From a virus: 64,000 nt of DNA. Both the position numbers and the translations under genes were made by a program. Positions 47,107-60,715 of the stretch are shown here, one piece after another; within the stretch, counting starts at the first letter, position 1; every line of letters starts with the position of its first letter. The notes beneath the pieces are model-generated. The model did no database searches. It was given only the letters and a program-made list of their open reading frames with translations, and was not told the origin of the DNA. Location of the stretch: the IMG/VR virus record IMGVR_UViG_3300037487_000323, positions 1 to 64,000 of that record, one strand, 5' to 3'.

Positions 47107-47286
47107 CTACCCTAAGTCGCCAGTCAATGTGAATGGGTTGGCATATATTGTTACATTCTGTGTAGGCGCAAGCATAGGTGCTCCACATGACCCACACACA
47201 TCAGAGCTAACATCTTCATCTGACAAACTAACATCACATATACTGCAGAACAACTCAATTAAGTGTGTATTATCTATTGCGCTCAT
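47107..47286 (-). CDS. 59-residue zinc-ribbon protein
   Basis: ATG 47286 overlaps the stop of the collar-fibre gene (ATGA); the stop TAG is at 47109-47107. The product begins MSAIDNTHLIELFCSICDVS and has two CxxC knuckles (C14/C17 and C31/C34, the latter CGSCGAPM). It is a zinc ribbon of unknown role, possibly a small virion or assembly factor given its place between tail genes. Confidence 0.65.
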   Translation of the reverse strand: MSAIDNTHLIELFCSICDVSLSDEDVSSDVCGSCGAPMLAPTQNVTIYANPFTLTGDLG

Positions 47287-48275
47287 GATTTTTGAATGTA
47301 GGCTAATGCAAAGTAAGGGGGTAGGTTAGCGCCTGTACCAGAAGAACCTGCAGAGTTAACCGTAATACCTGTTGTAACTGATCCTGTTGTAGCGGACGTT
47401 TGTGTTGCTAAGGCAGTGTCTCCACCAGCCGTTACCGTTGTTGTGGTCGATGCCGTGTTATAAGAATGAACATGCCCTCCATCAACAAGCGTATGGGTGT
47501 GATCTACAACAATAGCGTTGGCTGTCCCACCTATAGCCTCAAAAGCATACGTACTACCAGCACCTATAACAAAACGGTCTTGTAAATTTGGTGTCCCGTT
47601 AAGCCCATTGCATAAGAGCCACCCTGCGGGAATAGTAGCAATAGAACCGGACCACATGATAATGCCGCCTGATGGAAAAAACGTGCCTATGATAAAACCA
47701 GAAGCCCCATTAACAGTTAAAACACCTGCGTTACTAACACTAACATCGCCAGTTCCACCTGAAAGAGTAATGCCTGACCCACCCGCAATAGTCCTAACAC
47801 CTGCGTTAGTGACGGTAGCGACAGTACCAACTGTGTTTACAGAGATACCTGAACCAGCAGCTACGCTTATTTCATTAAGCACTACAGTAAAGTTAGTTCC
47901 GTCACAGTATACAATTTGGTTAGTACCAAAGGCTACACTTGCAGAAGTACCTGAAGCAGCTCTGATATTAATAGCGTAGCCCCCGATAGTATTATTCTCT
48001 ACGATATATATTTTTTTAACTAGGGGGGCGATAATGTCTCTAATAGCCCCATTGGTGCCAGTAACAACTAAAACAGCTTGTCTGGCCTCATCTGTTGCGC
48101 CATTAAGATTAGTTAGTGTGTAGTTAGCATTGGTCATAACTATTGAAACAGTACCAACAATAGACTGTTCTAACAGCGTACCTAAGTTTGAGTTAGTCGT
48201 TGTGTTCCATGATCCGATCTGTTCACCAGCGCCTATAAGTTCTAAGCGTAGTGAGGGGGAAAAAGTACTAGGCAT
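47283..48275 (-). CDS. Tail fibre protein with phage tail-collar domain
   Basis: This encodes 330 residues. The N-terminus (FSPSLRLELIGAGEQIGSWN) is a known attachment motif of aquatic-phage fibres. The middle is Gly/Thr/Val-rich. About 205-245 is the collar domain: GGIIMWSGSIATIPAGWLLC then NGTPNLQDRFVIGAG. The C-terminus has His-rich HTHTLVDGGHVHSY and LPPYFALAYI, seen in T4 gp12-like short fibres where His bind metal. It probably binds a surface receptor. Confidence 0.8.
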   Translation of the reverse strand: MPSTFSPSLRLELIGAGEQIGSWNTTTNSNLGTLLEQSIVGTVSIVMTNANYTLTNLNGATDEARQAVLVVTGTNGAIRDIIAPLVKKIYIVENNTIGGYAINIRAASGTSASVAFGTNQIVYCDGTNFTVVLNEISVAAGSGISVNTVGTVATVTNAGVRTIAGGSGITLSGGTGDVSVSNAGVLTVNGASGFIIGTFFPSGGIIMWSGSIATIPAGWLLCNGLNGTPNLQDRFVIGAGSTYAFEAIGGTANAIVVDHTHTLVDGGHVHSYNTASTTTTVTAGGDTALATQTSATTGSVTTGITVNSAGSSGTGANLPPYFALAYIQKS

Positions 48276-49798: not shown

Positions 49799-50376
49799 TC
49801 TTTTATAACCTTCATTTTCATCATAGTGTGGACGGCTACGTTATTTGCTTCACGCATTAAACGTCTGAATATAAAGTCTTCATCTTGGGTAATCGTACCA
49901 TCAGCCATCTTGGCTTTCATTCTAGCAACCATCTCTGCATAAAAGGCATCGTATTCAAAGTCATACCATTCCATCTCAAAGTTTACATTATACTTTAAGC
50001 CCATACCTGAGCTAGAGCCGTAAGCTTCGATATGCTCTTTGTTAGTTTTTTGGCAGAACATAAACATACCACCCACAGTGATAGGTCTTTTATGCGTAGG
50101 GTCTGAATAGTAGTTATCATGAAAGTGGTGCGGTACAACAATATCTAAAATAGCACCGTGTTTACATACGCGGTAAATCTCTTGCATCAAAGGAATAAAC
50201 CCTTGACCAATGTGTTCTAAGATATGATGCGCTCTAACTTCACTTACTGAGTTATCTTCAAAAGGAAGTATTGCAGCTTCAATATCTACAAGGTAATCTG
50301 GTTCTACAAGTACATCGTCATCAACATTTACAAAGCCTTCAATTCGCTTATAACCCGATCCGAGATTGACTTTCAT
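49795..50376 (-). CDS. SAM-dependent methyltransferase (class I)
   Basis: This encodes 193 residues. MKVNLGSGYKRIEGFVNVDD supplies the SAM-binding GxG loop and acidic strand end. FEDNSVSEVRAHHILEHIGQ matches the motif IV region of class I methyltransferases common in surface-polysaccharide loci. It overlaps the APS-kinase-like gene by ATGA and precedes the lysis genes. With its neighbours it may add methyl groups to a glycan; the substrate is not visible. Confidence 0.82.
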   Translation of the reverse strand: MKVNLGSGYKRIEGFVNVDDDVLVEPDYLVDIEAAILPFEDNSVSEVRAHHILEHIGQGFIPLMQEIYRVCKHGAILDIVVPHHFHDNYYSDPTHKRPITVGGMFMFCQKTNKEHIEAYGSSSGMGLKYNVNFEMEWYDFEYDAFYAEMVARMKAKMADGTITQDEDFIFRRLMREANNVAVHTMMKMKVIKE

Positions 50377-50783
50377 TTAAGTATTTCCATTATTATGTTT
50401 AGCTCCTCTTGGAGCGTTAGGCCTGTTGGGATAATAATATCCGCATTCTTTGGAGCAACAAATACTCTGTTAGTATCTGCGTATCTGCTTTCTTTTATTC
50501 TATCCACCCAAATGATGAACGCACTACCAAACGCAGCTCTTGTTTCATCAGTCGGGCATATAAAATCTGCAATCACGTTGTGACCAGCAGCAACCACTGT
50601 ATCACATAAATACCCCATGCGGGTCGCTTGCTCTAACCGATCTTCGGCACTAAAGCCTAAATCCTTATTAACGTGCTGCCTTATCGCGTCTGCATTAAAG
50701 TGTACAGCATTGAGCTTACGGGCTAACGCCTTAGCAAGAGTTGTTTTACCAGACCCCGCAAGCCCCATAATAAGGATTTTCAT
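50373..50783 (-). CDS. APS-kinase-like P-loop enzyme (PAPS synthesis candidate)
   Basis: This encodes 136 residues. Walker A is GLAGSGKTT (7-15). HFNADAIRQHVNKDLGFSAE followed by DRLEQATR corresponds to the APS kinase DGDxxR...LGFSxxDR segment, and ADFICPTDETR to its ISPYxxxR. APS kinase phosphorylates adenylylsulfate to PAPS. It is shorter than cellular CysC (about 180-200). Phage relatives are usually annotated as adenylylsulfate kinases but few are tested. A sulfotransferase that would use PAPS is encoded nearby, which supports the call. Confidence 0.75.
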   Translation of the reverse strand: MKILIMGLAGSGKTTLAKALARKLNAVHFNADAIRQHVNKDLGFSAEDRLEQATRMGYLCDTVVAAGHNVIADFICPTDETRAAFGSAFIIWVDRIKESRYADTNRVFVAPKNADIIIPTGLTLQEELNIIMEILK

Positions 50784-50784
50784 A

Positions 50785-51171
50785 TTACATTAAAACGTCT
50801 AATTCGTCATGCGTAGTTGCCGCTTCAATCAATGCTACTCTAGGAGCAACAGCAGCTTGGGCATCAGCAACAGCTTGTGGATCATACTTTAAAGGATCAC
50901 GAGCTTGTTCTTGAATAACTTGTTGGAAAGCAAATGAGGCATTAGAGATCATACCTGACTTACGTTCTTCTACGGTAATATCAAAAGTATCGTACACGAT
51001 TTCTACTGGTGTTTTAGTAATATCAAAAACGTGTGCTGTGTAACCTTGACGGTGTGGGATAATGGTAGGTCTTACTTCAATAGCATCTTTCCAGCCATCT
51101 TCATTAGCGGGTGGTAGAGTGTCCCAGACATCTGTGACTTCGTTGTTTTGTATTCTTACATGTAATGACAT
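50785..51171 (-). CDS. Probable tail fibre assembly/chaperone-like protein
   Basis: This encodes 128 residues. The N-terminus MSLHVRIQNNEVTDVWDTLP, then GYTAHVFDITKTPVEIVYDT, and the C-terminal helical, Ala-rich ending AAVAPRVALIEAATTHDELD resemble small proteins placed after fibre genes in many phages (DUF4376-like). It is the first gene after the third RCC1 propeller, where a fibre chaperone is expected. The role is inferred from position. Confidence 0.6.
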   Translation of the reverse strand: MSLHVRIQNNEVTDVWDTLPPANEDGWKDAIEVRPTIIPHRQGYTAHVFDITKTPVEIVYDTFDITVEERKSGMISNASFAFQQVIQEQARDPLKYDPQAVADAQAAVAPRVALIEAATTHDELDVLM

Positions 51172-51197: not shown

Positions 51198-52409
51198 TTA
51201 TGCTGATATGGCTAATGTGCTTTGACGGCCTCCAGCTACCTTAGACCAAGTGGTTAATGAACCTACTTGTTTAGGGCTTGAGTAGTTAGTTATATTACCT
51301 AGACCTAACTGACCTTGAGCATTATATCCCCAAGACCAAAGTATATTATCGGTTTTAGTGGCTATGGTGTGGTAGGACCCTGCAGTGATGTTAAGCCAAG
51401 TGGTTAAACTACCCACTTGTTTAGGGCTTGAGTATCTGGTTGTAACACCTAGTCCTAACTGACCTTGAGCATTATATCCCCAAGACCATAATGTACCATC
51501 AGTTTTAGTGGCTAAGTTGTGGTAAACCCCTGCAGTGATCTTAAGCCATGTGGTTAATGAACCTACTTGTTTAGGGCTTGAGTAGTAAGTGGTATTACCT
51601 AAACCTAACTGACCATAATAATTATATCCCCAAGACCATAGCGTACCATCGGTTTTAGTGGCTATGGTGTGCGCTTGTCCTCCAGATACAATATACCAAG
51701 TAGTCAATGAACCAACTTGTTTAGGGCTTGAGTAGCCAGTTATATTACCTAAACCTAACTGACCTTGAGCATTTCTTCCCCAAGACCATAGCGTACCATC
51801 TGTTTTAGTGGCTATGGTGTGGAAGGACCCTGCAGTGATGTTAAGCCAAGTAGTTAGTGAACCTACTTGTTTAGGGCTTGAGTAGTTGGTAATATTACCT
51901 AGACCTAATTGACCATAAGGATTATATCCCCAAGACCATAGCGTACCATCGGTTTTAGTGGCTATGGTGTGGTAGAACCCTGCAGTGATGTTAGACCAAG
52001 TGGTTAAACTACCCACTTGTTTAGGGCTTGAGTAGTAAGTTCTATTACCTAAACCTAACTGACCATAATAATTATTTCCCCAAGACCATAGCGTACCATC
52101 GGTTTTAGTGGCTAAGGTGTGGTAGCCCCCTGCAGTGATTTTAAGCCATGTGGTTAAACTGCCAACTTGTTTAGGGCTTGAGTAGTTGGTAATATTACCT
52201 AGACCTAACTGACCATTAGTGTTTAGTCCCCAACTGTATAATCCACCAAAAGGAGCTAAATTACCAGCAGTAGGCCACTGACCTTGTTTGATCCAATACC
52301 CTGCTTGCTCCATTGTCCATATACCCGAAGCTGTACTTGATTGGTATGGGCCACTTGGTGTTACTGGGTTTACAGCAGTTATTACGCCCGCAGGGTATTT
52401 CGTTGACAT
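51198..52409 (-). CDS. RCC1-repeat seven-bladed propeller, tail-fibre/receptor-binding candidate (C)
   Basis: This encodes 403 residues. An N-terminal 60-residue anchor has the tail-protein motif ASGIWTMEQAGYWIKQGQWP. Seven RCC1 blades of 50 residues follow, each built as xNxxGQLGLG, NxTxYSSPKQVGSLTTW, xxITAGxxHTIATKTDG and TLWSWG, the last shortened. Seven blades close a propeller. Blades are near-identical except at fixed variable positions. One blade lacks the conserved Asn (VTTRY), and one has KTDN. It is paralogous to the genes at 54232 and 55387. It is likely displayed on the tail, with the variable loops binding host surface. Confidence 0.85.
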   Translation of the reverse strand: MSTKYPAGVITAVNPVTPSGPYQSSTASGIWTMEQAGYWIKQGQWPTAGNLAPFGGLYSWGLNTNGQLGLGNITNYSSPKQVGSLTTWLKITAGGYHTLATKTDGTLWSWGNNYYGQLGLGNRTYYSSPKQVGSLTTWSNITAGFYHTIATKTDGTLWSWGYNPYGQLGLGNITNYSSPKQVGSLTTWLNITAGSFHTIATKTDGTLWSWGRNAQGQLGLGNITGYSSPKQVGSLTTWYIVSGGQAHTIATKTDGTLWSWGYNYYGQLGLGNTTYYSSPKQVGSLTTWLKITAGVYHNLATKTDGTLWSWGYNAQGQLGLGVTTRYSSPKQVGSLTTWLNITAGSYHTIATKTDNILWSWGYNAQGQLGLGNITNYSSPKQVGSLTTWSKVAGGRQSTLAISA

Positions 52410-52411
52410 AT

Positions 52412-54163
52412 TTAGCCTTCTAGTCGTTCTTTGATCTTGTTAAATGGGGTTTCCCATGACCCAAACTCGGTCTGGCGAAATAAAGTCATACTATCATAAT
52501 AAGGTGTTTTCTCACCATCAAGTGCGTACAGGTAATAGCCCATAATAGGCAGGATAACCCAAGTAGGAATCCCCATAGCCGCTGATAAATGGCTTACCGA
52601 AGTACAACTACTTATTACTAAATCACAGCTCGCGATTGCTCTTTGAGTGTCTGTCCAACTATCTAATGGAACATTCTTAACCCATAGCGGAGCATCGCCA
52701 GCACCTTCGTCTTTTTGTAAGCTGATAAACTCATACTCTACAGAGGCATCTTTTACAGCCATAAACATCAGCTCGTAAGGAAACTTCTTGTTGTGATCTT
52801 CTTCGTACTTAGAGCTACCCTGCCACCTTAAGCCAATACGTTTCTTGTTACCTGCAATTACAGTAGGTCTATCTATATAGGGCTTACCTGAGATGTCATC
52901 CATTGTATACCCAAGTGGATAAGGCACTACCATAGCGTAAGTCCAGAAATCATGAAAGATGCCAAACTCTGCACCATGCTGAATAACAGCAGACACGCCC
53001 TCTATAGTAGAGAACAACTGAGCAAGCATACCTGTACAGGCTACAACCACTTTATTACCACGAGCCACTAAGTCTTTAGCATATCTTACTTGGTGTATCT
53101 GATCGCCTAGACCATGATCGCAGTATAATAAAATAGTACCCTTAGCTTTGCCGTCCCACTCTGGCATCGGTGTGTCAGGTCTTTTAGAGCCTATAATACC
53201 ACAGTACCGACCCCTATCCATTTGAGCGTAACCGTTTGCAATATCACCCTGTTTTAGTAAGTACCAGCTACGATTGTACGCAGCTCTGTGATCTGTAGGG
53301 CGTTCTTCGTTAAGCTTTTCTGATAATCTCCAGCCCTCTACAAAGTCACCAATCTTACCTGATGCAACCTGTAAATCTAAATCATCCAATTCAGGCATGG
53401 TGCGAGCATTGTCATTCCAGAACTCAGGCTGACAAAACTGATTATAGTGGTGTTTTAATACGTCTTTAGCATCATCGTTGTGTTGCTTTTCTAACTTAGT
53501 TTTAACATCGTGCATACCTGCATAACCATGCAAGTTTTCATCATCTTCCGATACAGTAGAACCGTCTATTGCATTGAAGTCATAAGCGAATGGAGCAAGA
53601 CCTAAGAACTCATGCACTCTTTCTAGTTGACCTTTAGGATCAGCAAGAAGATTATCGTACTCAACGAACAGCATAGATTCAGGATCGTACTCAAACCCAG
53701 ACTGTAACGATTGGTATGCGGCTTTTAAATGATCGGCTAATTGACCTGAGTAAATAAACTCATCAAGGTTTTCTGGTTTAGCAACTCTAACAAAAGAAGC
53801 CATACAATCAGGCACTGAACGAACTGTCGCAATCACTTTACAAGGACGATCTAAAACCTGAGTCATAGCCGCCATGATTTGTGGTATAGGCCAACCGCGT
53901 GATTTATCTATGATGACAGGCTTATCAGTGTCTTCGTAAAAGGCATCAATCATGCCACGCATAGTTTGTGCTAACTTGGTTCTCTTAGGATCATTCTCAT
54001 TTAAAAGACCAGCCGAATGCCAAGTATTTGCCAAACCATCAAGTGCATGAACTAACCCTGATGTAGTAGAAACATGAGTCTCTGGGTTTTGATTAAGAAT
54101 AGCTGCTAATACTGTACTTCCGCTACGAGGTATGCCTGATAAAAAATGTAAAGTCTTGTTCAT
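52412..54163 (-). CDS. Sulfotransferase-TPR-GT9-like glycosyltransferase fusion
   Basis: This encodes 583 residues. The N-terminal domain (1-190) is a PAPS-dependent sulfotransferase: 5'-phosphosulfate loop IPRSGSTVL (11-19), 3'-phosphate site TVRSVPDCMASF (113-124) and VEYDNLLADP (167-176). About 270-325 is TPR-like (YNRSWYLLKQGDIANGYAQM). The C-terminus (about 340-583) resembles GT9/heptosyltransferases: LLYCDHGLGDQIHQVRY and SCDLVISSCTSVSHLSAAMG. It could transfer both sugar and sulfate to a surface glycan or virion protein. It sits between two propeller genes; an APS-kinase-like gene lies about 1.6 kb further along the same transcript. Confidence 0.85.
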   Translation of the reverse strand: MNKTLHFLSGIPRSGSTVLAAILNQNPETHVSTTSGLVHALDGLANTWHSAGLLNENDPKRTKLAQTMRGMIDAFYEDTDKPVIIDKSRGWPIPQIMAAMTQVLDRPCKVIATVRSVPDCMASFVRVAKPENLDEFIYSGQLADHLKAAYQSLQSGFEYDPESMLFVEYDNLLADPKGQLERVHEFLGLAPFAYDFNAIDGSTVSEDDENLHGYAGMHDVKTKLEKQHNDDAKDVLKHHYNQFCQPEFWNDNARTMPELDDLDLQVASGKIGDFVEGWRLSEKLNEERPTDHRAAYNRSWYLLKQGDIANGYAQMDRGRYCGIIGSKRPDTPMPEWDGKAKGTILLYCDHGLGDQIHQVRYAKDLVARGNKVVVACTGMLAQLFSTIEGVSAVIQHGAEFGIFHDFWTYAMVVPYPLGYTMDDISGKPYIDRPTVIAGNKKRIGLRWQGSSKYEEDHNKKFPYELMFMAVKDASVEYEFISLQKDEGAGDAPLWVKNVPLDSWTDTQRAIASCDLVISSCTSVSHLSAAMGIPTWVILPIMGYYLYALDGEKTPYYDSMTLFRQTEFGSWETPFNKIKERLEG

Positions 54164-54175
54164 AAGTTTTATAAG

Positions 54176-54236
54176 TTTAGGGTTTGGGTTTTATGGGTGC
54201 AGTATATATCATAGCTTTTAGGGTTTGGGTTTTATG
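54176..54236. repeat. 20-base direct repeat between propeller B and the sulfotransferase gene
   Basis: TTTAGGGTTTGGGTTTTATG occurs at 54176-54195 and 54217-54236 (41-base period). The second copy covers the stop of the propeller gene. This is the only gap of note in the fibre locus and may mark a past insertion or rearrangement. Confidence 0.85.
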
Positions 54237-55374
54237 AGATTGCTATAGCTATGGTGTTGTAGCCCATTGCAGCGATTTTAAGCCATGTGGTTAATGAACC
54301 TACTTGTTTAGGGCTTGAGTAGAAAGTTGTATTACCTAGCCCTAACTGACCTTGAGGATTATATCCCCAAGACCATAACGTACCATCAGTCTTGGTGGCT
54401 ATGGTGTGGGTGTTTCCAGCCCCCAAAGCGTTCCAAGTAGTTAATGAACCTACTTGTTTAGGGCTTGAGTAGTTGGTAATATTACCTAGACCTAATTGAC
54501 CATTAGTGTTTAGTCCCCAAGACCATAATGTACCATCAGTCTTGGTGGCTATGGTGTGGTAGAACCCTGCAGTGATCTTAGACCAAGTAGTTAGTGAACC
54601 AACTTGTTTAGGGCTTGAGTAGTTGGTAATATTACCTAGACCTAATTGACCCTTATCGTTAGCACCCCAAGACCATAATGTACCATCAGTCTTGGTGGCT
54701 ATGGTGTGGTAAACCCCTGCAGTGATCTTAGACCAAGTGGTTAGTGAACCTACTTGTTTAGGGCTTGAGTATTTGGTTATATTACCTAGACCTAATTGAC
54801 CATAAGGATTATATCCCCAAGACCATAATGTACCATCGGTTTTAGTGGCTATGGTTTGGTAGAACCCTGCAGTGATGTTAAGCCAAGTGGTTAAACTGCC
54901 AACTTGTTTAGGGCTTGAGTAGTTGGTAATATTACCTAGACCTAACTGACCTTGAGTATTTTGCCCCCAAGACCATAATGTACCATCTGTTTTAGTGGCT
55001 ATGGTGTGGAAGAACCCTGCAGTGGTGTTAGACCAAGTGGTTAATGAACCTACTTGTTTAGGGCTTGAGTAGAAAGTTATATTACCTAGACCTAATTGAC
55101 CAAAGGGATTATATCCCCAAGACCATAATGTACCATCGGTTTTAGTGGCTATGGTTTGGTAATATCCTGCAGTGATCTTAGACCAAGTGGTTAAACTACC
55201 CACTTGTTTAGGGCTTGAGTAGTACGTTCTATTACCTAGACCTAACTGACCCTGAGAGTTACTCCCCCACGCATAAAGAAAAGGTAACCCTGTCCAAGTC
55301 CCCGCTGCGACTGCTTGCATTTGTGCTTGTTTTGTCCACATCCCTGAGTATTGGACGTATGGATATGTTGCCAT
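54232..55374 (-). CDS. RCC1-repeat seven-bladed propeller, tail-fibre/receptor-binding candidate (B)
   Basis: This encodes 380 residues. A short anchor (MATYPYVQYSGMWTKQAQMQ, then AVAAGTWTGLP) carries the GxW-Q-G-W tail motif; seven RCC1 blades follow with the same framework as propellers A and C. Variable positions take values such as SNSQ, YNPF, QNTQ, ANDK, LNTN at the blade start. Blade 6 shares its opening LNTNGQLGLGNITNY with blade 1 of propeller C, which suggests exchange of modules. Confidence 0.85.
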   Translation of the reverse strand: MATYPYVQYSGMWTKQAQMQAVAAGTWTGLPFLYAWGSNSQGQLGLGNRTYYSSPKQVGSLTTWSKITAGYYQTIATKTDGTLWSWGYNPFGQLGLGNITFYSSPKQVGSLTTWSNTTAGFFHTIATKTDGTLWSWGQNTQGQLGLGNITNYSSPKQVGSLTTWLNITAGFYQTIATKTDGTLWSWGYNPYGQLGLGNITKYSSPKQVGSLTTWSKITAGVYHTIATKTDGTLWSWGANDKGQLGLGNITNYSSPKQVGSLTTWSKITAGFYHTIATKTDGTLWSWGLNTNGQLGLGNITNYSSPKQVGSLTTWNALGAGNTHTIATKTDGTLWSWGYNPQGQLGLGNTTFYSSPKQVGSLTTWLKIAAMGYNTIAIAIS

Positions 55375-55386
55375 TGTATTTCTCCT

Positions 55387-56505
55387 TTATCCTAGGGCTA
55401 TTGTAAATTCATTACCTGTCGCAACAGTAAGCCAAGTAGTTAAACTACCTACCTGTTTAGGGCTTGAGTAGTGGGTAATATTACCTAGACCTAATTGACC
55501 AGAGTTATTTTGACCCCAAGACCATAGCGTACCATCGGTTTTAGTGGCTAGGGTGTGGTAGACCCCTGCAGTGATGTTAAGCCAAGTGGTTAAACTGCCA
55601 ACTTGTTTAGGACTTGAGTAGTTAGTTATATTACCTAGACCTAACTGACCGAAATTATTATTCCCCCAAGACCATAGCGTACCATCGGTTTTAGTGGCTA
55701 TGGTGTGGTAGCCCCCTGCAGTGATTTTAAGCCAAGTTGTTAAACTGCCAACTTGTTTAGGGCTTGAGTATTTGGTTATATTACCTAGACCTAATTGACC
55801 ATAATTATTATATCCCCAAGACCAAAGTGTACCATCTGTTTTAGTGGCTATGGTGTGGCCAATCCCACCTGCAATATTAAGCCAAGTGGTTAAACTACCC
55901 ACTTGTTTAGGGCTTGAGTAGTGAGTCCTATTGTTTAGTCCTAACTGACCTTGAGTATTATATCCCCAAGACCAAAGTGTACCATCTGTTTTAGTGGCTA
56001 AGGTGTGGACTTGTCCTCCAGATACATTATACCAAGTAGTCAATGAACCTACTTGTTTAGGGCTAGAGTAGTAAGTTGTATTACCTAGACCTAATTGACC
56101 ATAATAATTATTTCCCCAAGACCATAGCGTACCATCAGTCTTGGTTGCTGTGGTGTGTTGGCCCCCTGCAGTGATGTTAAGCCAAGTTGTTAAACTGCCA
56201 ACTTGCTTAGGGCTTGAGTACCAAGTTGTATTGCCTAGACCTAATTGACCGTTGTTATTATATCCCCAAGACCATAATGTACCATCTGTTTTAGTGGCTA
56301 AGGTGTGGCCAAACCCTGCAGTTATTTTAGACCAAGTAGTTAATGATCCAACTTGTTTAGGGCTTGAGTATGTAGTTCTATTATTTAGACCTAATTGACC
56401 ATAGGGATTATTTCCCCAAGATAACAAATTATATTGGATTGTAGGCGCAACCAAAGGATTAAAGAGTCCGGCTTGGACGGACCCTGCTAAATATCTTCTT
56501 GACAT
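55387..56505 (-). CDS. RCC1-repeat seven-bladed propeller, tail-fibre/receptor-binding candidate (A)
   Basis: This encodes 372 residues. The N-terminal anchor (MSRRYLAGSVQAGLFNPLVA) differs from those of B and C, so the three propellers may dock at different sites or compete. Seven blades share the common framework; two have NNR/T (LGLNNRT) where the others have LGLGN. The blade-start residues include NNPY, YNNN, NNYY, YNTQ, QNNS. Blade 3 shares NNYYGQLGLGN with blade 2 of propeller C. Confidence 0.85.
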   Translation of the reverse strand: MSRRYLAGSVQAGLFNPLVAPTIQYNLLSWGNNPYGQLGLNNRTTYSSPKQVGSLTTWSKITAGFGHTLATKTDGTLWSWGYNNNGQLGLGNTTWYSSPKQVGSLTTWLNITAGGQHTTATKTDGTLWSWGNNYYGQLGLGNTTYYSSPKQVGSLTTWYNVSGGQVHTLATKTDGTLWSWGYNTQGQLGLNNRTHYSSPKQVGSLTTWLNIAGGIGHTIATKTDGTLWSWGYNNYGQLGLGNITKYSSPKQVGSLTTWLKITAGGYHTIATKTDGTLWSWGNNNFGQLGLGNITNYSSPKQVGSLTTWLNITAGVYHTLATKTDGTLWSWGQNNSGQLGLGNITHYSSPKQVGSLTTWLTVATGNEFTIALG

Positions 56506-56515
56506 TTTAGCCTCC

Positions 56516-56887
56516 TTAAGAGAGTTGTTCCCAACTTGAAGTTACCACTAAGGCAGTAGATGTACCCGCAGTAGCACCAATAGATTGGTTCTCAAGCAAA
56601 TAAAATGTTGTTGTCTTGTCAACAATGATAAGCGAGGCGTTAGCAGGCACTGAGATAGTAGACGCAATAGGAAATGCTGTACCACCAAGAGCCGCTGCGC
56701 TATAGATGTTAATAGTGATGTTAGCCGCAGATGCTGAGGTGTTAGCCACTACGATTGAGTTCACTTTGAATGCAATACCGCTTGATGCTGCATTAGATGC
56801 TAATGAAGTAGCTGAAGTAGTTGTTAAGGAAACTGAAGACATGTTCCCATTAATTGTTGTTACGTTGACCAAATTTGGGTTTGCCAT
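56516..56887 (-). CDS. Small Ser/Thr-rich virion protein, unknown function
   Basis: This encodes 123 residues. The sequence is beta-rich (VNSIVVANTSASAANITINI, then PANASLIIVDKTTTFYLLEN) and resembles small phage surface or fibre-associated proteins with an immunoglobulin-like strand pattern. It lies just upstream of the three propeller genes on the same strand. No enzymatic motif. Confidence 0.6.
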   Translation of the reverse strand: MANPNLVNVTTINGNMSSVSLTTTSATSLASNAASSGIAFKVNSIVVANTSASAANITINIYSAAALGGTAFPIASTISVPANASLIIVDKTTTFYLLENQSIGATAGTSTALVVTSSWEQLS

Positions 56888-56896
56888 TAGTGTTCC

Positions 56897-57457
56897 TTAA
56901 GAGCCAAAGATAAGAGAGTATGCAATAGATTGTCCTTTAGAGACTCCACTAGCTGCTGGGGTAGAAGATACCCATGTTGTGCCGTTTGATGTAAGTATGT
57001 TACCTGAAGCACCAACAGCTGATAAATTTGTACCACCGTTTGCAACTGGCAAGATACCAGATACACCTGTAGTTAATGGTAGACCTGTTACATTAGTTGC
57101 AACAAAAGCTGCAGGTGTACCCAGACCGATAACATTACCCGACACATCTAAGTTAACAGACTTACCTGCAGGGTAGGTACAAAACACATCTTTAGTGCCT
57201 GTTGTAAACGCAACAGCTGCGCCACCATTACTGGAGGTTAATACTGTAGTTCTAGTTAAAAGCCCGGCACTAACTGTACCTATACCCACTTCCCATTCGG
57301 CTGTACCTGAGTTAGTTACACCGTAGTAAGTTGTATTAGTGTTACCTATTGCTGCTGAAAACCCTTGATACCCGCTTACTGCGCCTGTAAGTACAAGTGC
57401 GCCAGTACCTATAGATGTACTTACTTCCCGAACTCTATCTGCTAATACTAATGCCAT
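56897..57457 (-). CDS. Tail fibre-like structural protein
   Basis: This encodes 186 residues. The start LADRVREVSTSIGTGALVLT followed by GAVSGYQGFSAAIGN is a recurrent phage structural motif, and the C-terminal TTGVSGILPVANGGTNLSAV matches the repeat that links domains in many tail fibres. It is probably a fibre or baseplate-proximal component acting with the propellers. Confidence 0.7.
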   Translation of the reverse strand: MALVLADRVREVSTSIGTGALVLTGAVSGYQGFSAAIGNTNTTYYGVTNSGTAEWEVGIGTVSAGLLTRTTVLTSSNGGAAVAFTTGTKDVFCTYPAGKSVNLDVSGNVIGLGTPAAFVATNVTGLPLTTGVSGILPVANGGTNLSAVGASGNILTSNGTTWVSSTPAASGVSKGQSIAYSLIFGS

Positions 57458-59142: not shown

Positions 59143-59861
59143 TAGTTAAATGACATTCTAGGCACCATACGTACAGGCGCTTTTTCACGGTTTTCATCGG
59201 CTGCTAATTGAAACTGCTCGTCATATACCATCTTTAATCCAGCAATTCTTTGCACGTCTACATTAGGGAGCTTCATAGCCAAATAATAAGACAACCCTGC
59301 AATTAGTGCGGGTAAGAATAAATAGGGTATGTCTTGTGTATTAACACCGTCACCAGCATCTTGCATTCTCCTTAAGCGCCAGTAGACAAACGTGTACTGG
59401 TTGCCCGGAGACTGTGGCGTAGGCCATACATTAATTGTTGGGTAGGTTATGCCTGTGGGTGTTAACGCACCTGATTGTCTGTTTATCCAAACTTGGATAG
59501 GTTTACCTAACGCAGTCTTATTAGGGATTGTCGAATAAGTAGAACCTGAAATTCTTGATATTGTTATATCGGATTGATTCTGGCCTGTGCCTGTACGTAT
59601 TACTTGGTCTAGTAAATCAACAGTATCTATGGGTAGATTGTATACAGCTTGTCCTGTAACCATAGGGATTGCGCCCTCTTCCACAGTCCATAAATTTATA
59701 CCCCTATTGCCCCATTCTGCAAAAAGAAGATTAAGAGATCGTCTAGCTGTTTTAAAATCATAACCACTACGTAGTTCTGTACCATTCCCGCAGCGCTCAA
59801 AACTTTCTTCGATTATATCTGCCAAATCCATATTGAACAAAGCTGTACCTGTAGTGGTCAT
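59142..59861 (-). CDS. Head completion / tail adaptor protein (P22 gp4-like position)
   Basis: This encodes 239 residues. MDLADIIEESFERCGNGTEL, then TARRSLNLLFAEWGNRGINL and VYNLPIDTVDLLDQVIR, fit the adaptor proteins that plug the portal after packaging in P22-like and T7-like phages. The C-terminus PYLFLPALIAGLSYYLAMKL is helical. Its ATG overlaps the stop of the homing nuclease gene. Confidence 0.75.
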   Translation of the reverse strand: MTTTGTALFNMDLADIIEESFERCGNGTELRSGYDFKTARRSLNLLFAEWGNRGINLWTVEEGAIPMVTGQAVYNLPIDTVDLLDQVIRTGTGQNQSDITISRISGSTYSTIPNKTALGKPIQVWINRQSGALTPTGITYPTINVWPTPQSPGNQYTFVYWRLRRMQDAGDGVNTQDIPYLFLPALIAGLSYYLAMKLPNVDVQRIAGLKMVYDEQFQLAADENREKAPVRMVPRMSFN

Positions 59862-60715
59862 TTCTTTTCCTTACAGTTATCTAAATGCCAACGTTTCATA
59901 TTACTTAAAATACCTTGTTTGTTACAATGTGGACAATCTATTAGCGGTCTATTTTTATGCGCATTACGCATTTTTTCTAAAGCTTCTGCAGAATGTTTTT
60001 TACCATAATAGGGGTTATTTACACCCGTTGCTATTTCCGATAATTTTTGTTTTTCTTTATCTGATCTAAGTTTACCATACATTGGGTTTTTAACCCCTAG
60101 CATTCTTTTTGACAAAACACTAGAATTTAATTTTGCACGGTATGCTATTTTTTCATTCTTGGTTAAACCTTGCATAGGTTCTCGTAATTCTTCTGGAAGA
60201 TTCAATATGTATTTTATATCGTATCTGCTTTTACGTTCTTCTTTTGACATCCCCGTTTGCCTTTCAGGGTATGTTCTACCTATTTGGGCAATACTAATTT
60301 TTAACCGCGTTTCTTCAGATACTACACGCCCTATTTGTCTCGCGCTTTGATTTTCAGATTGTTCTTTGGTTATTTTTCTACCTTTAGAACTCTTAGAGAT
60401 TTTTTCTCTAACTTCAGCTGTTGGTGAGCCTAGCCCACCCCCTCCGGCACACATATTATATTGAGGGTTTAGATTAGAAATAAATAATATTTCTAATGCG
60501 TTTAATGCATCTTTATCTCCGGCTCCAGCAACTTCTTCTATCGTAAAACTATCTTTACCATACTTTCTAATTGCCGCACATATAACCCAAAGTTTATTAC
60601 ATTTAGCAGAACTTATATGTGATGCCCATCTTGATTTTAAAGATGTTATTGTTTGGCCAATGTAAATATTACCATTTGTTATGTTTGTTATTTTGTATAT
60701 TACTCCGTATTTCAT
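59858..60715 (-). CDS. GIY-YIG homing endonuclease (Seg-like, with NUMOD3 repeats)
   Basis: This encodes 285 residues. The GIY-YIG domain spans 1-95: VIYKITNITNGNIYIGQT, then Arg29 in SRWASHI and Glu in LEILFISNLNPQYN. About 100-250 are NUMOD3-type DNA-binding repeats (GRKITKEQSENQSARQIGR, NPMYGKLRSDKEKQKLS, NPYYGKKHSAEALEKM). The C-terminus has a possible zinc finger CPHCNKQ...HLDNC. It is free-standing within the late operon, between a 37-residue gene and an adaptor gene, and probably spreads itself by cutting related phage genomes. Confidence 0.92.
   Translation of the reverse strand: MKYGVIYKITNITNGNIYIGQTITSLKSRWASHISSAKCNKLWVICAAIRKYGKDSFTIEEVAGAGDKDALNALEILFISNLNPQYNMCAGGGGLGSPTAEVREKISKSSKGRKITKEQSENQSARQIGRVVSEETRLKISIAQIGRTYPERQTGMSKEERKSRYDIKYILNLPEELREPMQGLTKNEKIAYRAKLNSSVLSKRMLGVKNPMYGKLRSDKEKQKLSEIATGVNNPYYGKKHSAEALEKMRNAHKNRPLIDCPHCNKQGILSNMKRWHLDNCKEKK

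Follow-up and report, generated by a model that had tools for sequence, protein, structure and literature searches.

Both the PHROG database and published papers label phage RCC1 proteins as DNA-condensation factors. The window analysed here, i.e., the first 64,000 nucleotides of an IMG/VR virus contig of 65,386 bp (IMGVR_UViG_3300037487_000323), carries three paralogous RCC1 genes, A, B and C, in a tail-fibre region. The comparative evidence presented below points to a different role for them, that of hypervariable propellers with which uncultured phages recognise their hosts. Mass spectrometry has detected RCC1 proteins in the virions of phages W70 and GAP32 (PMC11370258, PMC5259590), phAPEC6 encodes eleven of them (PMC7247149), and DNA condensation was suggested as their function by the authors (PMC11370258, PMC5259590, PMC7247149). 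A first-pass annotation of the window had called RCC1 proteins little studied as phage receptor-binding proteins. A literature search for RCC1 phage proteins as 'receptor binding protein' found nothing; as virion proteins, however, they were already known from the mass spectrometry of W70 and GAP32. An Ostreococcus virus paper retrieved as an RCC1 match was discarded because the 'RCC1' text there consists of strain codes.

Three RCC1 genes with a near-constant framework

Each of the three genes contains seven GQLGL anchors spaced exactly 50 aa apart and ends in a blade shortened to 46-48 aa, and the 150-bp arrays reported by Tandem Repeats Finder agree with this blade periodicity. All 21 blades exceed the Pfam RCC1 (PF00415) cut-off of 21.7 bits, the proteins score 274-307 bits against the RCC1-like domain PF25390 (WD40_RLD; cut-off, 150 bits), and they match phrog_4219 at 1e-44 to 1e-48. 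The initial reading of the locus as three seven-bladed RCC1 genes with 50-residue blades was thus confirmed. The features of the locus are listed in Table 1.

Table 1. RCC1 genes and neighbouring features (coordinates refer to the window)
Feature	Position	Strand	Remarks
186-aa protein, probable truncated fibre base	56897..57457	-	relatives: PHROG tail fiber
'MANPN' protein, 123 aa, just upstream of A	56516..56887	-	in 50/78 RCC1-retrieved loci, 0/78 relatives without RCC1
RCC1 gene A	55387..56505	-	372 aa; N-class anchor (MSRRYLAG..GLFNPL); blades 55390-56427
RCC1 gene B	54232..55374	-	380 aa; W-class anchor (YPYVQYSGMWT..AAGTW); blades 54235-55278
Sulfotransferase-domain protein, 583 aa, between B and C	52412..54163	-	Sulfotransfer_3 in residues 7-190
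RCC1 gene C	51198..52409	-	403 aa; N-like start plus W-class motif (MSTKYPAGVI..SGIWT..QGQWP); blades 51201-52241
128-aa cassette protein, downstream of C	50785..51171	-	conserved across RCC1 phages; no family match
136-aa kinase, partial APS kinase match	50373..50783	-	Pfam 1.2e-16, residues 3-84
SAM-methyltransferase-like protein of the cassette, 193 aa	49795..50376	-	recurs in cassette
Tail-collar fibre protein, flank of variable slot	47283..48275	-	PHROG 1800, 2.5e-21; Collar domain below cut-off

Within the blades, 25 of the first 44 positions are unvarying or nearly so. Columns 1, 4, 5, 7, 10-14, 18, 20-32 and 44 are invariant in the 21 blades, and variation is restricted to columns 6, 8, 9, 17, 19, 33-37 and 39-41, with the highest entropy at column 39 (2.95 bits), followed by 19, 8, 40, 6 and 9. 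The pN/pS ratio of the window blades is 0.15 in the framework versus 1.12 in the hotspot columns, which are rich in Y, N, Q and T and poor in K/R. These values bear out the earlier description of a near-constant framework with clustered changes, whose hotspots at 'residues 1, 3 and 4', in N-x-T-x-Y and around TAGxxHT correspond to columns 6, 8 and 9, 16-20 and 36-42, respectively. Unlike the remaining framework, a 20-base block, TACTCAAGCCCTAAACAAGT (columns 20-26), is identical in at least 20 of the 21 blades at every base, silent sites included. It should be noted that columns 6, 8, 9, 39 and 40 also have high entropy in a set of 2025 RCC1 blades, as a general pattern of the repeat, and given this pattern part of the hotspot entropy may reflect relaxed constraint.

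Related loci were compared in a set of about 210 from IMG/VR, 78 of which were retrieved in a scan using A. A blade HMM run over all scanned loci detected 364 RCC1 ORFs, 339 of them with exactly seven blades. Two main anchor classes precede the blades: 'MS.R[YQ]...GFNPL', to which A belongs, and 'YP..QYSGIWT.QQ..A.AAGTWP', to which B belongs; C and some other RCC1 ORFs contain elements of both. The three N-terminal anchors had been said to all differ; they are indeed not alike, but they do not represent three unrelated types. A scan of bacterial genome contigs for a host retrieved only distant RCC1 proteins (at most 51% identity) from many phyla.

The variable positions probably share one face of the propeller

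The AlphaFold2 model of A (mf34e6f017720), built with 44 related sequences, is a closed seven-bladed RCC1-like propeller with a mean pLDDT of 93.1 and a pTM of 0.88, the anchor being poorly ordered in this monomer model. Its best matches among solved structures are HERC2 RLD2 (Z 54), UVR8 (Z 51), human RCC1 (Z 49) and BLIP-II (Z 31). The modelled strands span blade positions 1-5, 20-25, 32-37 and 41-46. With an antiparallel blade topology, the loop between the first and second strands (6-19) and the hairpin between the third and fourth (38-41) open on the same face, bringing the main hotspots together, and the loops of the opposite face (26-31 and 46-50) are invariant or nearly so. In the structural alignment with UVR8, on which columns were assigned by manual counting, W94 falls at column 6, D96 at column 8, D107 at column 19, and W233 and W337 at column 39. 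The surface through which UVR8 dimerises includes W233, W285 and W337, whose cluster is joined by W94 of the other monomer, and the D96N/D107N protein is a monomer (PMC9546227). The hotspot columns thus coincide with the UVR8 dimer face, and the variable face corresponds to one that is proven to mediate interaction in proteins of this fold. The face assignment, derived from the topology of the strands together with the alignment to UVR8, supports the earlier suggestion of a scaffold displaying variable loops on one face.

The RCC1 genes occupy a slot held by fibre genes in relatives

The nearest relatives, as judged from a neighbouring gene of 211 aa (92% identity; L087-L089), are without RCC1 genes and have in the slot a 344-aa protein composed of 47-residue repeats with an almost constant framework and a few variable columns. 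This protein was modelled as a propeller (pLDDT 88) whose structural matches are WD40/YVTN-like phage proteins. Other relatives have in this slot tail-fibre-like proteins of 742-1714 aa, a 772-aa LamG-like/virion structural protein (LamG by our reading of the sequence; virion structural / tail fiber by PHROG), or other fibre-like proteins, so that tail-fibre-annotated genes are found where the window carries its RCC1 genes. Moreover, relatives of the 186-aa protein have a median length of 554 aa (up to 1714) in loci without RCC1 versus 265 aa in loci with RCC1 (p 0.0006). The presence of fibres, LamG-like proteins or a second propeller at the same place indicates that the RCC1 genes sit in a host-recognition slot whose content is exchangeable. 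RCC1 repeats are also present in an annotated tail protein, gp88 of Pseudomonas phage Littlefix, and in the Pseudomonas phage protein Ppr_SeaP3_12, where they follow a T7-fibre-like N-terminus (Phage_T7_tail match below the Pfam cut-off) and the gene follows a lytic transglycosylase gene.

The second repeat-propeller family is unrelated to RCC1; it is present at L088:2530-3561 and also in L087, L089 and L219-L296, varies at columns 20, 22 and 38, and is matched in IMG/VR by at least 331 stretches. ORFs resembling GIY-YIG homing endonucleases by eye lie in or near tail-fibre cassettes, at 59858-60715 of the window and at L048:12066-12620, L057:2725-3300 and L090:10611-11417.

The gene slot also bears on a possible role outside the virion, in which the propellers would act during infection by gripping a host or competitor protein in exclusion or counter-defence. 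BLIP-II, a known protein-binding propeller, belongs to the same superfamily and shares the fold. However, the RCC1 genes lie in a tail-fibre slot, their N-terminal anchors are conserved and have no recognised signal, and mass spectrometry has revealed RCC1 proteins in the virions of other phages (PMC11370258, PMC5259590); we therefore give this role only a slight chance.

RCC1 genes change fastest in the cassette

In 10 pairs of loci, representing few independent lineages, whose sulfotransferase genes are 95-98% identical, the flanking RCC1 genes are only about 71% identical, compared with 96.7% for the 128-aa gene and 89.5% for the MANPN gene. Hence, the RCC1 genes are the fastest-changing of the cassette. 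The change is concentrated behind a conserved N-terminal attachment region: in most pairs the anchors score 0.72-1.00 versus 0.55-0.75 for the blades, the exceptions being pairs in which the anchor type differs. In eight independent orthologous RCC1 pairs, the six core hotspot columns contain about 42 nonsynonymous versus 7 synonymous changed codons, and the framework about 20 versus 104. The paired genes are for the most part very close, and a few pairs probably contribute most of the signal; the excess at the hotspots is therefore suggestive of positive selection, not proof of it.

These data help to discriminate between alternative roles. The proteins might decorate the tail with no part in recognition, the hotspots being merely the unconstrained positions of a repeat homogenised by recombination. 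The fact that the same positions vary in RCC1 blades throughout the family would fit this, as would the framework homogenisation within the genome described below. Yet there are about six nonsynonymous changes per synonymous one at the core hotspots of recent orthologous pairs, where unconstrained codons would give roughly 3:1, the anchors and neighbouring genes are conserved, and RCC1 repeats have precedents in tail fibres; decoration is therefore unlikely in our opinion. We consider it very unlikely that the propellers reside inside the head and condense or organise the packaged DNA. That role is in line with the placement of these families under DNA/RNA metabolism by PHROG, with the ordered DNA structure proposed for phAPEC6 (PMC7247149) and the DNA encapsulation proposed for W70 (PMC11370258), and with the presence of the W70 RCC1 proteins in virions (PMC11370258). 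On the other hand, the published proposals are annotation by analogy with eukaryotic RCC1, tail fibres, LamG-like proteins or another propeller otherwise fill the slot, and both the fast change of these genes, unexpected for DNA packing, and the scarcity of K/R at the hotspots speak against it.

Probable exchange at the sub-blade scale

Blade similarity is essentially equal between A, B and C and within each of them (0.792 and 0.794), and blade order has no register (0.783 for blades of the same number versus 0.793 for different numbers). At identical residues the codon identity is 0.74, compared with 0.37 expected from codon usage, which is the third highest value among 106 loci. Recent concerted evolution by gene conversion would be the simplest cause of this pattern. 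The strings that had been noticed to recur in different genes were recovered: LNTNGQLGLGNITNY is common to B6 and C1, and NNYYGQLGLGN to A3 and C2. The diversification by exchange of 150-base modules that had been proposed did not hold up, as none of 1785 blades has a partner of at least 97% identity in a different register and the two halves of a blade appear to be of independent ancestry. In the window, a Mantel test of the first versus the second blade half gave r = -0.02 (p 0.54); the corresponding r was 0.59 for interleaved codons and averaged 0.43 for random splits, with a minimum of 0.23. The same tendency was observed in L039 and L043, with r of 0.17 and 0.15 for the halves versus 0.56 and 0.43 for interleaved codons. 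Individual blades illustrate this mosaic: B6 and C1 have the first half in common and differ in the second, and A3 matches C2 in its first half and C4 in its second. Because the halves are uncorrelated and near-identical blades are absent, exchange would operate at the sub-blade scale, and the comparisons suggest that sub-blade reassortment is a better reading than 150-base modules. Linkage disequilibrium decays with distance over all sites (p 0.0005) but not at synonymous sites alone (p 0.32), so this decay was not taken as proof. Firmer evidence comes from the Mantel test on blade halves, which has the interleaved codons as control; tests on segments of about 15 bases have little power. In L208, whose blades are the most uniform of all (between-gene codon identity, 0.82), the halves are correlated (r = 0.58), in line with whole-blade homogenisation, unlike the window.

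Could the mosaic be partly an assembly artefact, in which short reads were misjoined via the TACTCAAGCCCTAAACAAGT block common to all blades? The sequence is a metagenomic contig, and the near-identity of this block would facilitate such misjoining. However, the frames, seven-blade counts and anchors are all intact, blades share exact tracts of up to 65 bp with no whole-blade duplicates, and L039 and L043 tend the same way, so that a contribution of misjoining is very unlikely. A diversity-generating retroelement was rejected for this record, whose 65,386 bp, possibly incomplete, contain no RVT_1 match.

A sulfotransferase gene accompanies the RCC1 genes

The usual order of the cassette is MANPN - RCC1 - RCC1 - sulfotransferase - RCC1 (- RCC1) - 128-aa protein - methyltransferase/kinase. 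The sulfotransferase gene is present in 69 of the 78 RCC1-retrieved loci, all 52 loci retrieved with the sulfotransferase contain RCC1, and the gene occurs in none of the 78 relatives without RCC1 (25 of which have at least 6 kb downstream). This near-perfect co-occurrence makes a functional link between the two likely; that the enzyme modifies the propellers or a surface glycan is our guess. Its sequence gave no match against the PDB at 0.01, and the C-terminal half of the 583-aa protein carries no assigned domain. Assignment of the 136-aa kinase as an APS kinase was rejected, the match being partial and NCBIfam apsK below cut-off. The partial APS-kinase-like and methyltransferase-like proteins recur in the cassette and could supply or accompany sulfation.

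A possible role in host recognition

In our view, the three paralogues are probably receptor-binding proteins at the tip of the tail fibre and not the DNA-packing proteins that databases name them. The host-recognition role proposed earlier is supported by the position of the genes in the slot, the conservation of the anchors, the hypervariability of the propellers and the fusions to tail fibres. An argument against it is that the W70 RCC1 genes with products detected by mass spectrometry (237-239) lie away from the tail genes of that phage (106-137) (PMC11370258). The anchors would dock the propellers onto the tail, the variable face would bind a glycan or protein structure on the host surface, and the multiplicity of propellers may broaden or update the host range. 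Diversity would arise by point change in the loops and by sub-blade recombination among the 21 blades, with no reverse transcriptase involved. A more elaborate scheme, which we put forward tentatively and regard as doubtful, is an RT-free system for diversifying host recognition in which each blade holds two variable cassettes between conserved DNA blocks (one being the 20-base block) that reassort among all 21 blades of A, B and C through homologous recombination, the display face is modified by a dedicated sulfotransferase that strictly co-occurs with the propellers, and the second propeller found in the slot is built alike. A constant scaffold with one variable face, altered through recombination and point mutation and independently of a reverse transcriptase, would give phages another way to keep up with their hosts; it would also offer a natural template for libraries of binders. 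The tie with the sulfotransferase raises the question of whether phage tails or host surfaces carry sulfate.

Comparison with known systems

The closest known proteins are W70_237-239, GAP32 GAP_001 and those of phAPEC6 and 121Q (phrog_4219), which are likewise RCC1 propellers, often with several paralogues per phage. In contrast to these proteins, which were assigned to DNA condensation on account of their name, those described here have two anchor classes, one-face hotspots on a near-constant framework, and a sulfotransferase cassette in a tail-fibre slot. Littlefix gp88 and Ppr_SeaP3_12 are single long proteins with diverged repeats, whereas the window encodes separate paralogues with short anchors and near-identical blades. 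In the phi11 RBP, PRD1 P2 and phiKZ gp131C, a propeller is known or suspected to bind the receptor (PMC4901313), but these are five-bladed or unrelated seven-bladed propellers, not RCC1, and not hypervariable repeats. UVR8, HERC2 and BLIP-II have the fold in common with A, B and C, and in the case of UVR8 the dimer face matches the hotspot positions; they are, however, cellular proteins whose blades have diverged in sequence. The Ran-GEF activity or chromatin binding of eukaryotic RCC1 does not define the wider RLD family. Finally, diversity-generating retroelements resemble the present system in combining a fixed scaffold with variable surface residues in phage receptor-binding proteins, and differ in that here the record has no reverse transcriptase and the variation is spread over 21 repeats.
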